Assembly (NCBI GenBank): GCA_003135055.1 | Contig: PLDF01000373.1 | Span: 28,644-92,643 of the forward strand | Direction of reading: 5' to 3' | Source of the DNA: Bryobacterales bacterium | Lineage (GTDB): Bacteria; Acidobacteriota; Terriglobia; Bryobacterales; Bryobacteraceae | Length of the DNA stretch: 64,000 nucleotides | Shown: one piece after another, positions 2,969 through 21,660 of the stretch | How the letters are laid out: the number at the start of each line of letters is the position of its first letter | Numbering within the stretch: position 1 is the first letter of the stretch | Notes under the pieces: generated by a model | Seen by the model: the letters and a program-made list of their open reading frames with translations, nothing else | Told to the model about the DNA's origin: nothing | Databases searched by the model: none | Made by a program: the position numbers and the translations under genes

Positions 2969-3607
2969 ATGAGAAGCCTGGTATTTTCGATTGTGATCCT
3001 TGGCGCGGCGACCGCCGCCTTCGCCCAGCAATGGGAGTTCGGCGCGGTGGGCGGCGGCAGCCTGCTAAGCGATGTTTCGGTCAGCGGGGCGGCTGGTAAA
3101 GCCACTGCGGGCTTCGCGCCCGGCGCGGCCTTCGGCGCGTTTGTCGGAGAGAATCTTTACAGCCACCTGACCGGTGAACTGCACTATGAATTTATGCAGA
3201 GCGACCTTCGCCTTTCGAGCGGCGGCCAAACCACGGCGCCGTTCACCGGCGTGGCGCATGCCCTGCACTTCGATATGGTTTATCACACCAACAGGAAAGA
3301 ATCGCGCACGCAGTTTTTTGCGGCCCTGGGCGGCGGCGTGAAGGTGTTTCGGGGAACCGGCGCTCCGGAGGCGTATCAGGCGCTGAGCCAATTCGGTTAC
3401 CTCACCCAGACGCAGGCCGTCAAGCCGATGGTGAGCGTGGGCGGCGGCCTGACATATCAACTGGCGCCGAGGATTTTTCTGCGGGCTGAAATCCGCGATT
3501 TCATCACGGCCTTTCCGTCGGCGCTCATTACGCCGGCGCCCGGGATGAAGTTCGGCAGCCTGCTGAACGATATAGTGCCGCTGGTGGGAATTACTTACGT
3601 TCATTAA
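2969..3607 (+). CDS. Outer-membrane beta-barrel-like protein with signal peptide
   Basis: MRSLVFSIVILGAATAAFAQQWEFGAVGGGS; alternating pattern, C-term LLNDIVPLVGITYVH; immediately after previous CDS. Confidence 0.65.
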   Translation: MRSLVFSIVILGAATAAFAQQWEFGAVGGGSLLSDVSVSGAAGKATAGFAPGAAFGAFVGENLYSHLTGELHYEFMQSDLRLSSGGQTTAPFTGVAHALHFDMVYHTNRKESRTQFFAALGGGVKVFRGTGAPEAYQALSQFGYLTQTQAVKPMVSVGGGLTYQLAPRIFLRAEIRDFITAFPSALITPAPGMKFGSLLNDIVPLVGITYVH

Positions 3608-4623: not shown

Positions 4624-5615
4624 TGGCCGCGCCGCCGCTTCGCGTGGTCGCCATCGGGGGCGGCACCGGCCTTTCCTCGCTGCTGCAGGGACTCAAGCGG
4701 TATGCGTGGACCGGCGAAGTGGATATCACCGCCATTGTTACGGTGACCGACGACGGAGGAAGCTCCGGACGCCTGCGCCGCCAGTTCGACGTGCTGCCGC
4801 CGGGCGATATCCGCAACTGCATGGTGGCGCTGAGCGAAGATTCGGCGCTGCTTGCGCGGTTGTTCCAATATCGTTTCGATGCCGGCCGCGGGCTCAAGGG
4901 ACACAGCTTCGGCAACCTGTTCCTGATGGCGTTGACGCACATCATGGGCGATTTTCCGGATGCCGTGAAAGCGTCCGCGGAAGTGCTCAAGATCGCCGGA
5001 CGCATCTTTCCCGCCACGGCCGCCAATGTGGCGCTGGAGGCTACGCTGGCGAACGGAACGACCGTGATTGGGGAAACGCGCATCAGCCGGAGTAAACAGC
5101 CGATTCGATCGATCCGGCTGCGGCCGCGGAAGGCCGAGCCCATGGCCGAGACTCTGGCGGCCATCGCGGAAGCGGACGTGATCACGCTGGGGCCGGGCTC
5201 GTTGTTCACCAGCGTGATCCCAAACTTGCTGGTCGCGGGGATTTCAGCGGCGCTGCGCCGGTCGCCCGCGGTCAAGGCGTATTTCGTGAATCTGATGTCG
5301 CAGCCCGGCGAAACCACGGAATTCACCGCGTCCGACCACATTCGCGCCCTGCGCAAGCACGCCGGCGGGCAGTTGCTGGACTATGCGGTGATCAATATCC
5401 GCCCCATTACATCGGCGATGAAGGCGCGCTATGCGAATCAGCAGGCGTTGCCGGTGGTGAACGACATCGACGCGCTCTTCAAACTGGGAGTGAAGGTGAT
5501 GGGGGGGAAACTGGCGCGGCACGGCGAGACCCTGAAGCACGATCCCGAGGCGACGGCGGCGGTGGTTGTGAAACTGGCGCAAGAGGGACGGCGGCGGCGC
5601 GGCTCGCGGAAATAG
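4623..5615 (+). CDS. yvcK: YvcK/CofD-family gluconeogenesis factor (UDP-GlcNAc-binding)
   Basis: AIGGGTGLSSLLQGLKRY...IVTVTDDGGSSGRLRRQFDVLPPGDIRNCMVAL; GTG start overlapping upstream stop. Confidence 0.9.
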   Translation: MAAPPLRVVAIGGGTGLSSLLQGLKRYAWTGEVDITAIVTVTDDGGSSGRLRRQFDVLPPGDIRNCMVALSEDSALLARLFQYRFDAGRGLKGHSFGNLFLMALTHIMGDFPDAVKASAEVLKIAGRIFPATAANVALEATLANGTTVIGETRISRSKQPIRSIRLRPRKAEPMAETLAAIAEADVITLGPGSLFTSVIPNLLVAGISAALRRSPAVKAYFVNLMSQPGETTEFTASDHIRALRKHAGGQLLDYAVINIRPITSAMKARYANQQALPVVNDIDALFKLGVKVMGGKLARHGETLKHDPEATAAVVVKLAQEGRRRRGSRK

Positions 5616-13350: not shown

Positions 13351-13375
13351 CGGCGACAGGCCGGGAGGCCCGTCG
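13351..13375. repeat. Palindromic element, family B (GACAGGCCGGGAGGCCYGTC)
   Basis: cggcgacaggccgggaggcccgtcg; related copies at 13444, 20401, 20461, 20497, 20533, 54489, 58591. Confidence 0.8.
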
Positions 13376-13436: not shown

Positions 13437-14588
13437 CTAAACCCCGGCGACAGGCCGGGAGGCCTGTCGCACAAGCGCGCCGGGGCCGGGCTCGGCATGG
13501 ATGATGTGGCTGGGGTCGCCGGCATAAAAACGGCCGGTCAGGCGCCGCGCCACGCTGGCTGCTTCGGCCTTTGAACAGAAGATCAGCGCGCATCCGCCGA
13601 AGCCCGCGCCGGTCAACCGCGCGCCCGTCGCGCCCGATTCCATGGCGGTATCGACCAAGCGGTCGAGCGCTTCGCAGCTCACCTTCAGGCAATCGCGGAG
13701 GCTGGCGTGCGATTCCCGCAGCAGGCGGCCGAAGGCTTCGGCATCGCCGCGCTCCATCGCCTCCACTGCCGCGTGGACGCGCGCCGATTCGCCGGCCACG
13801 TGCGCGGCTGCGCCGGGGCCGTTGCGCGCTGCGTTATATCGTTCGCGGGCCGCGCCCGATTTTTCCGCGCGCACCAGGCTGTCCGCGGCGAGGAACGTCC
13901 AATCCGGCGGAATGGGCACGTGGCGCACCGCGAGTGGACGAAAACCGACCAGCGACGCGCAGCCTTCCTTTGACGCCAACGCGGCCGCGTGATCCATACC
14001 GCCTCCGCGGGTTCCCACGAAGCGCTCGCCTTCGGGAAGGATCTCCATTAATTCCTCGAAAGTTGCGGTCCAACTGTTGGCTTGCAGCAGCGCCAGCGCG
14101 AACGCCACGATGAGGGCGGAAGAGGAGGATAAGCCGGCGGCGGCGGGTAAGTCCGAGGTGACTACTGCATCGATGCCCGCGCCCACGCCCCACTTGCGCG
14201 ATACAGCCAGCGCCGCCGCGCGGAGGTAGTTCTCCCAATCTCCCGCGGTCACGGGAGTCAAGCCGCTGCGCCACTCGAACTGCCGGGGGGCGTATGCGCC
14301 GCGGGCGGTCTCTGGCGGGAAACGGCGTGGGGCGTGGCTCGGCTCTGGGCCTGGGCTTGGCTTATGGCCTGGCTCATCGATTGAGCGTGCCTGGGCGGTT
14401 ACGGATCTCTCGTCGCAGGCCATGGGCCCGCGCCACTGGGATTCGACGCGGATCAGGCGGTCGCAACGGCGCTCGAACGACACGTCGATACGCTGGCGCA
14501 ATGCCATCGGCAAGACGGGCAGGCCGTGATAGTCGATGTGCTCTCCGATCAGATTGACGCGGCCCGGCGCCCACACGTGCTCTTGCAT
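13437..14588 (-). CDS. galK: Galactokinase (GHMP kinase)
   Basis: VWAPGRVNLIGEHIDYHGLPVLPMAL...DLPAAAGLSSSSALIVAFA...GARLTGAGFGGCALIF; last codons lie inside palindromic family B. Confidence 0.85.
   Translation of the reverse strand: MQEHVWAPGRVNLIGEHIDYHGLPVLPMALRQRIDVSFERRCDRLIRVESQWRGPMACDERSVTAQARSIDEPGHKPSPGPEPSHAPRRFPPETARGAYAPRQFEWRSGLTPVTAGDWENYLRAAALAVSRKWGVGAGIDAVVTSDLPAAAGLSSSSALIVAFALALLQANSWTATFEELMEILPEGERFVGTRGGGMDHAAALASKEGCASLVGFRPLAVRHVPIPPDWTFLAADSLVRAEKSGAARERYNAARNGPGAAAHVAGESARVHAAVEAMERGDAEAFGRLLRESHASLRDCLKVSCEALDRLVDTAMESGATGARLTGAGFGGCALIFCSKAEAASVARRLTGRFYAGDPSHIIHAEPGPGALVRQASRPVAGV
13444..13469. repeat. Palindromic family B copy overlapping galK 3' end
   Basis: ggcgacaggccgggaggcctgtcgc. 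Confidence 0.85.
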
Positions 14589-18644: not shown

Positions 18645-20387
18645 ATGGCTAAAAAGCACGCACCCGCGCGCGCTTCGCAACCGCCCGCATCCAAAGCGGC
18701 TGTTGCGCCCGCGCGATGGCCGGTCTTCGCCGCGTTTGCGGCCGCGCTCGCCGTGGTGTTATGGGCCTACGGCCCGGCGTTTCACGGTCCATTTCTATTC
18801 GACGACACGACCTTACCCTTTGCCTTGCCCGGCTTCGCCGATCCGCTGATCACCTGGATCCGCAGCGACCGCCCGGTGCTCATGTTCACCTACTGGTTGA
18901 ACGCGCGGATCTCGGGGAGCGACCCGTATTCCTACCACGTCTTTAACCTTGCCATTCACTGCGTTACCAGCGCGCTGGTTTTCGCGATCGTGCGCCGGTT
19001 TCTGGAATGGTCCGGTGTGGAAGCCCGGCGGCGCGAGCTGCTGGCGGCTTTTTCGGGGCTGCTCTTCCTGCTGCATCCCGCGCAATCGGAAGCGGTGGCC
19101 TATCTTGCGGGCCGGTCGGAAGCGCTGAGCGTGATGCTGGCATTCGCCGCATTTGCCGTCTTTATCTACCGCCGCCAGACACGGGTGGGCTGGTGGACGG
19201 CGCTTGCCGTGATGCTTCTTTTCGTGGCCTCGCTGCTCACCAAGCAGCAAACTATCGCGCTGCCGGCGCTGCTGCTGCTCACCGATTTCTGGTGGAACCC
19301 CGGCTTCTCATTGCAGGGAATCCGCGCGAACTGGAAGCTGTATGCGCCGCTCGCGCTCGGCTCCGCGGCGGGCATCGCGTTCTTCTGGCGCCTGATAACT
19401 ACCGCGACCACGGCTGGCTTCGGGCTCAAGGACCTCACCTGGTATCAATACTTTTTCACCGAGTGCCGCGCCCTTTTCGTCTATCTCCGCGAATTCGTTT
19501 TGCCTTTCGGCCTCACCGCCGATTGGGATTTTCCTATCTCCAGGACCATCCTCGATCGCGGCGCGGTTTTCGGGCTGGCCGCGTTGCTGGCGCTGGCTGC
19601 CGCCGCATGGCATTACCGGCGGCGCTACCCGCTGGCGGCGTTCGGTTTCTTTACGTTCCTGGTGGCGATGGCGCCCACCTCTTCGATTCTGCCCATTCGC
19701 GACCCCATCGCGGAATACCGCCTTTACTTCGGTATTCTGGGCCTGATTCTGGCCGCGGCCGGCCTGCTGAGCCGGGTCAAATTACCGCGCGCTACGCTGG
19801 CCGCCGCCTGTGGTGCGGTGCTGCTGATTTTCGCCGTGGCCACGCACGCACGGGCAGAAGTCTGGGGGAATGCCATCGCGCTTTGGCAGGACACCGTGGA
19901 AAAATCGCCGGACAAAGCCCGCGCCCACTTTCAACTCGCCAGCGCTTACGCCGACGCCGGCGAATGCGAACAGGCCTCCGCCGAGTACGAGAAGACTGCG
20001 CGCTTTCCGCCGGTGGACTATAGGCTCCCCGACCTATTGGTGGATTGGGGCCTCGCTCTCGAATGCGCCGGGCAGCAGCAGCCGGCGCTTGACAAACTTC
20101 GCGCAGCGGCAGCGATGGAGCCGACGGCGCATGTTTACACGCAAATCGCCAAGGTGTATGGGGAGCATTCGCAATGGAGCGAAGCCCTGGACGCGCTTGC
20201 CGAAGCGCAAAAGATCGACGCCAGTTTCGCCCCCATCTACGCCTACAAGGGCATCATCGACTACCAGACCAACCGCTTCGCCGAGGCGATCGCGGAATAT
20301 CGGCACGCGCTGGCGCTTGACCCAAGGCTCGAACCGGCCAAGACGGGGATGGCTGCGGCGCAGCAGCGCCTCGCGGCCGGACGCTGA
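18645..20387 (+). CDS. Polytopic membrane protein with C-terminal TPRs, TMTC/PMT-like glycosyltransferase
   Basis: Many TM helices, FDDTTLPFALP...RPVLMFTYWLNARISGSDPYSYHVFNLAIH...LHPAQSEAVAYLAGRSEALS, then TPRs. Confidence 0.8.
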   Translation: MAKKHAPARASQPPASKAAVAPARWPVFAAFAAALAVVLWAYGPAFHGPFLFDDTTLPFALPGFADPLITWIRSDRPVLMFTYWLNARISGSDPYSYHVFNLAIHCVTSALVFAIVRRFLEWSGVEARRRELLAAFSGLLFLLHPAQSEAVAYLAGRSEALSVMLAFAAFAVFIYRRQTRVGWWTALAVMLLFVASLLTKQQTIALPALLLLTDFWWNPGFSLQGIRANWKLYAPLALGSAAGIAFFWRLITTATTAGFGLKDLTWYQYFFTECRALFVYLREFVLPFGLTADWDFPISRTILDRGAVFGLAALLALAAAAWHYRRRYPLAAFGFFTFLVAMAPTSSILPIRDPIAEYRLYFGILGLILAAAGLLSRVKLPRATLAAACGAVLLIFAVATHARAEVWGNAIALWQDTVEKSPDKARAHFQLASAYADAGECEQASAEYEKTARFPPVDYRLPDLLVDWGLALECAGQQQPALDKLRAAAAMEPTAHVYTQIAKVYGEHSQWSEALDALAEAQKIDASFAPIYAYKGIIDYQTNRFAEAIAEYRHALALDPRLEPAKTGMAAAQQRLAAGR

Positions 20388-20388
20388 G

Positions 20389-21660
20389 ATGCCTAAGTGG
20401 GACAGGCCTCCCGGCCTGTCGTTGCCTGGTCCGCCGCCGGGCCCGCCGGCGAATCCGCCTGACAGGCCAGGAGGCCAACCGTCGGCGAATCCGCCTGACA
20501 GGCCAGGAGGCCAGCCTTCCCTGGGTCCGCTGGACAGGCCGGGAGGCCTGTCCTACAAGATCGGCGTCAATGCGCTCTATCTGATCCCCGGCGGGGTGGG
20601 TGGCACGGAGATTTACCTGCGCGCGCTGCTTCCGGCGCTGGCGGAAATCGACAAGGTGAACCAATATTTCGTTTTCACCAACCGGGAAACCGGCGCCGAT
20701 CTGGTTCCCGCGGCGCCCAATTTCATCCACGCGCTGCAACCGGTTCGCGCGACGTCGCGGCCGGCGCGAATTCTGTGGGAGCAGACGGCTTTGCCTTTGG
20801 CGGCCGCGCGGCTGCGCCTCGATGCGATGTTGAATCCGGGCTTCACGGCGCCGCTCTTTTGTCCGTGTCCGCAGGTGACGGTGTTTCACGACCTGCAGCA
20901 TAAGCGCCATCCCGAATACTTCCGCTGGTTCGACCGGCCGTTCTGGCGGTTCTTCCTCTACTGGGCGGCGCGGCGGTCGAAAGCTCTGATTGCGGTTTCC
21001 AGCGCCACTGCCGCCGACTTGCGCCGGTTCTATCCGCGCCTGCCCGCATCGAAAATCCACGTAGTGCCGCACGGCGTCGATCCCGTTTTCGCGGGAATTC
21101 GCACGCGGCGGAATCCGCAGCCGTTCCTGCTGGCCGTTTCGACGCTCCACCCGCACAAGAATCTCGACGGGCTGTTGCGCGCGTTTGCGCTTTTCCGGCG
21201 CCGGCGCCCGGATATGCGATTAGTGGTTTGCGGCATGCACGGATTCGCGACCGGTCCGCTGCACGAGTTACGGCGATCTCTCGGTCTCGAAGAAGCCGTC
21301 GAATTCCCGGGCTGGATTCCGCGCGATGGGCTCTACGATCTTTACGCCCGCGCCTGGGCTTTCATTTATCCCTCGCGCTTCGAGGGCTTTGGCCTGCCGA
21401 TTCCGGAAGCCATGGCGGCGGGGATACCGATGGCGTGTTCCGATGTAGAACCCATGTCCGGCCTGGCGGGCGATGCGGCAGTGAAGTTCGACCCGGAGGA
21501 CGTGGATGCCATCGCCGCGGCGATGCTCCGGCTGACGGAGGACGAAGCCCTGCGGGCGCGGCTGGCCGAGGCCGGTCCGCGGCAGGCGGCGAAGTTTTCC
21601 TGGAAGGCGGCGGCGGAAGGCACGCTGGAGACGCTGCGCGGGGCGATGGAGAAGCTCTAA
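20389..21660 (+). CDS. Glycosyltransferase family 4 (GT-B); N-terminus encoded by palindromic repeats
   Basis: KIGVNALYLIPGGVGGTEIYLRALLPAL...KIHVVPHGVDPVF...LAVSTLHPHKNLDGLL...FIYPSRFEGFGLPIPEAMAAGIPMACSDVEPM. Confidence 0.85.
   Translation: MPKWDRPPGLSLPGPPPGPPANPPDRPGGQPSANPPDRPGGQPSLGPLDRPGGLSYKIGVNALYLIPGGVGGTEIYLRALLPALAEIDKVNQYFVFTNRETGADLVPAAPNFIHALQPVRATSRPARILWEQTALPLAAARLRLDAMLNPGFTAPLFCPCPQVTVFHDLQHKRHPEYFRWFDRPFWRFFLYWAARRSKALIAVSSATAADLRRFYPRLPASKIHVVPHGVDPVFAGIRTRRNPQPFLLAVSTLHPHKNLDGLLRAFALFRRRRPDMRLVVCGMHGFATGPLHELRRSLGLEEAVEFPGWIPRDGLYDLYARAWAFIYPSRFEGFGLPIPEAMAAGIPMACSDVEPMSGLAGDAAVKFDPEDVDAIAAAMLRLTEDEALRARLAEAGPRQAAKFSWKAAAEGTLETLRGAMEKL
20401..20552. repeat. Cluster of four palindromic family B units including a 36-bp tandem repeat
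   Basis: gacaggcctcccggcctgtc (20401), ggcgaatccgcctgacaggccaggaggcc at 20448 and 20484, gacaggccgggaggcctgtc (20533). Confidence 0.9.

Follow-up and report, generated by a model that had tools for sequence, protein, structure and literature searches.

A REP cluster probably inserted behind the native start codon of a GT4 glycosyltransferase gene in a Bryobacteraceae genome

The 64,000-nucleotide stretch of DNA analysed here (the window) lies on contig 22 of a genome of 10.7 Mb, with Bryobacteraceae (Acidobacteriota) as its closest kin, and it contains a GT4 glycosyltransferase (GT) gene whose frame includes a cluster of palindromic repeats ahead of the conserved domain. The best explanation, to which a probability of about 0.78 is given, is that a REPIN-like cluster of REPs with a GT(A/G)N tag was inserted behind the native ATG of this gene and is read in frame as a leader. 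Briefly, a cluster of ~160 bp, including a 36-bp tandem, would have entered an operon junction just behind the native ATG, presumably placed by a RAYT-type transposase, and would happen to be open and in frame. The ribosome would still initiate at ATG 20389 in coupling with the upstream stop, and the repeats would be read as a Pro/Gly-rich leader of ~55 residues ahead of an otherwise normal enzyme.

Repeat cluster and probable native start of the glycosyltransferase gene

The upstream TPR gene terminates with TGA at 20385-20387, and ATG 20389 was selected as the start of the GT gene by gene-calling coding score (Table 1). From this ATG, the frame (MPKWDRPPGLSLPGPPPGPPANPPDRPGGQPSANPPDRPGGQPSLGPLDRPGGLSY-KIGVNALYLIPGG) is stop-free, runs through the palindromes, and joins the GT4 domain in frame at K, 20557, as the original prediction had described; the peptide WDRPPGLSLPGPPPGPPANPPDRPGGQPSANPPDRPGGQPS is part of the predicted leader. 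The GT4 assignment is based on matches to Glyco_transf_4 (PF13439, 73 bits) and Glycos_transf_1 (PF00534, 116 bits). Only 1 of the 71 near-invariant positions of the domain deviates in the window, and 0 or 1 deviations are found in 79 of 90 sequences; judged from its sequence, the domain is free of decay and its deviation is typical for the family.

Table 1. Features of the glycosyltransferase locus (positions within the window).
Feature	Position	Strand	Remarks
Upstream gene, membrane/TPR protein	18645..20387	+	ORF; TPR matches at its C-terminus
Upstream gene as syntenic partner of the GT			directly 5′ of the GT, within 100 nt, in 88/93 orthologous loci
Whole predicted CDS	20389..21660	+	423 aa; first 56 aa comprise native start and putative repeat-derived leader
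ATG, most likely native (ancestral) GT start	20389..20391	+	1 nt past upstream stop; equals orthologous start position
REP copy 1	20397..20420	+	tag GTGG + GACAGGCCTCCCGGCCTGTC; 20-bp palindrome exact at 20401-20420
First 36-nt tandem unit	20443..20478	+	holds degenerate REP 20461-20480
Second 36-nt tandem unit	20479..20514	+	holds degenerate REP 20497-20516
REP copy 4	20533..20556	-	tag GTAG (CTAC on +); palindrome exact at 20533-20552
GT4 glycosyltransferase domain (KIGVNALYLIPGG...), apparently intact	20557..21660	+	PF13439, PF00534

The REP cluster spans 20397-20556 between the ATG and the domain. Four 20-bp palindromes, two of them in a 36-bp tandem, had been predicted; all are present, but only the outer two are exact, whereas the middle two are degenerate with 3-4 mismatches each. 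The tandem period of 36 nt is a multiple of three (12 codons per unit), and three units lie in register (100%, 94%, and 67%). The outer pair, copies 1 and 4, forms a 24-nt inverted repeat with 96% complementarity, GTGG and CTAC tags at its outer ends, and 112 nt between its arms. This 112-nt interior is unique in the genome except for short REP matches, and a search of the genome for further copies of the whole cluster likewise returned just such short matches.

The sequences 5′ of the GT were compared in 93 distinct orthologous loci from GTDB genomes. In 88 of the 93 orthologues, the conserved R/K-IGVNALYLIPGG is preceded by a canonical start (ATG/GTG/TTG) at a distance of no more than 8 codons; the TPR stop is between -14 and +29 nt away from the conserved R/K residue in 88 of the 90 measurable loci. 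In the window, the REP cluster intervenes between the TPR stop and the domain and brings this distance to 169 nt; the distance outliers L066 (104 nt) and L060 (159 nt) contain different inserted sequence. In L060, an unrelated long inverted repeat is located ~60-200 nt 5′ of position 3001 at the same TPR/GT junction, before a GTG start. Across the junction, the nearest orthologue (L016, 73% identity) reads TAG-G-ATG-GAG-CGG-CTG-CGC-ATC-GGC, and the window reads TGA-G-ATG-CCT-AAG-TGG-[REPs]-TCC-TAC-AAG-ATC-GGC; at the protein level, TAGGATGGAGCGGCTGCGCATCGG in the nearest relative stands against TGAGATGCCTAAGTGG[REPs]TACAAGATCGG in the window. The palindrome has no match in the 1 kb upstream of the 93 orthologues, and none of these relatives has residues corresponding to those encoded by the repeats. 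Because its position, 1 nt past the TPR stop, matches the orthologous starts, ATG 20389 is most likely the ancestral start and the REP cluster came in behind it; the empty site we infer from relatives at no more than 73% identity. The alignment of orthologues, which the original prediction had proposed, thus indicates a shared start site and a repeat leader that is not shared. Of the suggestion that the palindrome supplies the start or the leader, the latter part holds, and the former was rejected because the ATG lies 5′ of the repeats and matches the orthologous start positions. Separately, in three orthologous loci (L064, L038, and L116), no ATG, GTG, or TTG occurs in the interval from the in-frame stop upstream to the GT domain; a CTG or ACG start is possible in them, and AGGAGG precedes the CTG in L064.

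The repeat family and its other in-frame sites

A chance origin of the palindrome copies is excluded because 7 matches to the 20-bp palindrome with up to 3 mismatches are found in the window versus 0 in 100 shuffles, and GACAGGCCNCCNGGCCTGTC yields 77 + 83 matches in the genome (~160 near-exact copies in 10.7 Mb) versus 0 for the reversed control. The consensus was examined in 137 copies from 80 genome stretches and the window, drawn from the first 100 of the matches listed. In these copies, the 20-nt stem is GACAGGCC-TCC[CT]-GGCCTGTC with arms conserved at 93-99%, and it is preceded by a tag with G (96%) and T (94%) at bases 1 and 2, A (53%) or G (43%) at base 3, and G (55%), C (27%), or A (16%) at base 4. 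A GTRG tag is present in 70/137 and the exact GTAG in 27/137 of the copies among the matches listed, so the tag is looser than the classical one. Among the same matches, 101 clusters comprise 73 single copies and 28 groups of 2 to 4; 83 clusters are intergenic and 14 are inside called ORFs, as approximated by a home-made codon-score gene caller. With its short palindromic stem, GTAG-like tag, high copy number, and mainly extragenic location, the repeat fits the GTAG-tagged REP superfamily. Its occurrence among relatives is patchy, with 69 copies in one genome (G020), 14 in another (G019), and 0-1 in the other 58.

The genome has six Y1 transposase genes, five of them RAYT-like and one above the NCBIfam cut-off. 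The RAYT-like gene on contig 363 (73 bits, below the cut-off of 80) is a candidate mobiliser of the REP family, since it alone of the five has a neighbouring family REP, a GTAA-tagged copy on the 5′ side that overlaps the 5′ end of the longest ORF. The longest ORF of a RAYT-like transposase at L203:3141-3782 (+) begins 5′ of a GTAA-tagged REP, which is thereby placed in the apparent N-terminus. Furthermore, of 7 short NN gaps seen across the sampled loci, 4 have a REP no more than 60 nt away (L128:2021, L149:1956, L164:2025, and L172:3530), which suggests assembly or sequencing trouble at hairpins.

REPs are also found in frame in other genes of this genome, the products of which were named from reading of the sequences and not by family search. 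In Mfd (L180:2638-6279, -), the REP cluster 5068-5213 corresponds to ~50 extra in-frame residues (358-407), which are absent from the Mfd of G001 (79% identical overall), where the two matching pieces are directly contiguous (0 nt apart). In TrpF (L153:263-898, -), the REP at 461-480 encodes RQASWPV, and the net gain of four residues falls at a position gapped in 7/7 aligned relatives. In-frame REP peptides are additionally present in an APC-type permease (L198:1232-2551, -), an S9-type peptidase (L179), a Ser/Thr kinase with TPRs (L181), and a YncE/phosphoesterase-like protein (L192). Because Mfd, TrpF, and these further ORFs carry REPs in frame, reading through REPs is apparently tolerated in the genome. 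Within the window, the C-terminal tail (...GALVRQASRPVAGV*) of a galactokinase-like gene (13437-14588, -) is encoded by the family REP 13449-13468, and a second REP lies nearby at 13355-13374. A frame bias of the palindrome inside ORFs, which the original prediction had proposed to look for, was dropped as a claim: phases 0/1/2 are represented by 7/5/2 of the clusters among the matches listed, and 14 clusters are too few, several of them being near ORF ends.

Probable translation of the leader and alternative readings

The leader of ~55 residues is probably translated in front of the GT4 enzyme, and the argument proceeds by elimination. No ATG, and also no GTG or TTG, is found between the last repeat and the GT domain, in agreement with the original prediction, which had considered ATG. 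Ahead of the domain, the frame offers just two canonical starts, ATG 20389 and TTG 20422, the latter between REP1 and the rest of the cluster; the next, GTG 20596, falls in the Gly-rich loop of the domain, and its use would remove the first strand. The open frame itself was discarded as proof of translation, since the simulated chance of an open 165-nt frame at the given G+C is 27-39% (~10% if the in-frame condition is also demanded) and two of the five remaining frames across the cluster, one forward and one reverse, are likewise free of stops. The codon usage of the leader is non-coding (LLR -0.18 per codon versus +0.25 in the domain), as expected of inserted DNA. More weight than the open frame is carried by the in-frame REPs of Mfd, TrpF, and the further ORFs described above, by which reading through REPs is apparently tolerated.

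The unaided RNA fold of the region is predicted at -153 kcal/mol (z = -4.1), with REP1 paired to REP4 and the AUG in a stem beside the REP1/REP4 hairpin in both MFE and centroid folds. Lower initiation or expression is a plausible side effect of such a paired start codon, and the same fold is what speaks for a reading in which hairpins over the start codon silence, or are silencing, the gene, making it a young pseudogene. This is decidedly improbable: neither a stop nor a frameshift is found, the single changed near-invariant position is in line with most relatives, and the start is covered in the unaided fold only. Since the GT starts 1 nt after the stop of its neighbour, ribosomes ending the upstream gene may open the structure over the AUG. 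The view that misassembly at a repeated palindrome created the junction draws on the quality of the assembly (515 contigs, 9.3% contamination) and on the N gaps near REPs described above; given that the window is free of Ns, the interior of the cluster is unique, and the flanking synteny is conserved, this is very doubtful.

The repeats could also constitute a 5′ UTR hairpin array, with translation from a near-cognate start downstream, either CTG 20548 in REP4 or ATC 20560, and perhaps with GGGAGG in the inverse REP serving as the ribosome-binding site. Indeed, inverse copy 4 reads GGGAGGCCTGTCCTAC, with GGGAGG at 20541-20546 and the in-frame CTG 20548 behind it, the three orthologues without a canonical start indicate that near-cognate starts may occur in the family, and, in the view of Di Nocera et al. 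(PMC3733652), many N-terminal REPs are extragenic. However, GGAGG precedes CTG 20548 by 1 nt and ATC 20560 by 13 nt, both of which are poor spacings, it is buried in a predicted 24-bp stem, and an in-frame ATG is on hand at the ancestral position. This reading is therefore considered unlikely, and nothing in the sequence requires the non-canonical start with 5′ UTR repeats that had been suggested earlier. Its strongest form, in which the inverse REP is a portable ribosome-binding site with a near-cognate CTG start, is highly improbable; if true, translation of the downstream enzyme would be initiated by the mobile palindrome itself.

Meaning and comparison with known systems

An insertion behind the native ATG with in-frame reading of the repeats would be a clear, comparison-resolved case of a mobile palindrome that lengthens a protein frame at the N-terminus while the ancestral start codon is kept. 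The kind of event is already described, and the GT locus is a new example of it. Together with the mid-gene comparators (Mfd, TrpF, permease, and kinase), it renders this lineage usable for estimating how frequently REPs are translated versus silencing, and annotators are warned that such leaders are repeat-derived.

Intragenic REPs, including those at N-termini, have been known since 2013 (Di Nocera et al., PMC3733652). GTAG REPs are reported there inside genes, repair genes included, with clusters encoding 43 to 82 residues, and Rickettsia proteins with N-terminal palindromic elements are cited as expressed; the article also cautions that many N-terminal REP cases may be misannotated starts. 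This caveat is addressed for the GT locus because the orthologous start positions match ATG 20389. Like the GTAG REPs of that article, the present repeat is short, palindromic, and high in copy number, bears a GT(A/G)-type tag, is mostly extragenic, and occurs in inverted pairs and clusters with occasional in-frame intragenic sites, N-terminal cases, and a DNA-repair gene hit (Mfd here). Unlike them, it has a looser tag (GTGG, GTAG, GTAC, GTAA, GTGC), and its host belongs to Bryobacteraceae, whereas the phylum appears in the available part of the article only with transposases flanked by other inverted repeats (TIRs); it was matched to none of the 24 families of the article as far as that part extends.

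As in REPINs (Bertels and Rainey, 2011, PMC3116915), two inverted REPs, 112 nt apart in this case, could form a long hairpin, although the putative mobile unit differs from REPINs in its internal 36-bp tandem of degenerate REPs; no second copy of the whole unit turned up in the genome. Rickettsia palindromic elements (RPE) are similarly palindromic mobile repeats found in frame in many unrelated RPE-bearing proteins, whereas their sequence is unrelated, their phylum is different, and RPE-4/-6 have a CGTC-type tag. Finally, the repeats associated with class 3 Y1 transposases in Solibacter usitatus (~600 copies; PMC6006769) are also high-copy hairpins in a related acidobacterium, but they have a CnGA foot in place of the GT(A/G)N tag. 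The GT(A/G)N repeat of Bryobacteraceae hence looks like a family for which no description was found in the literature, of a kind that is already known.
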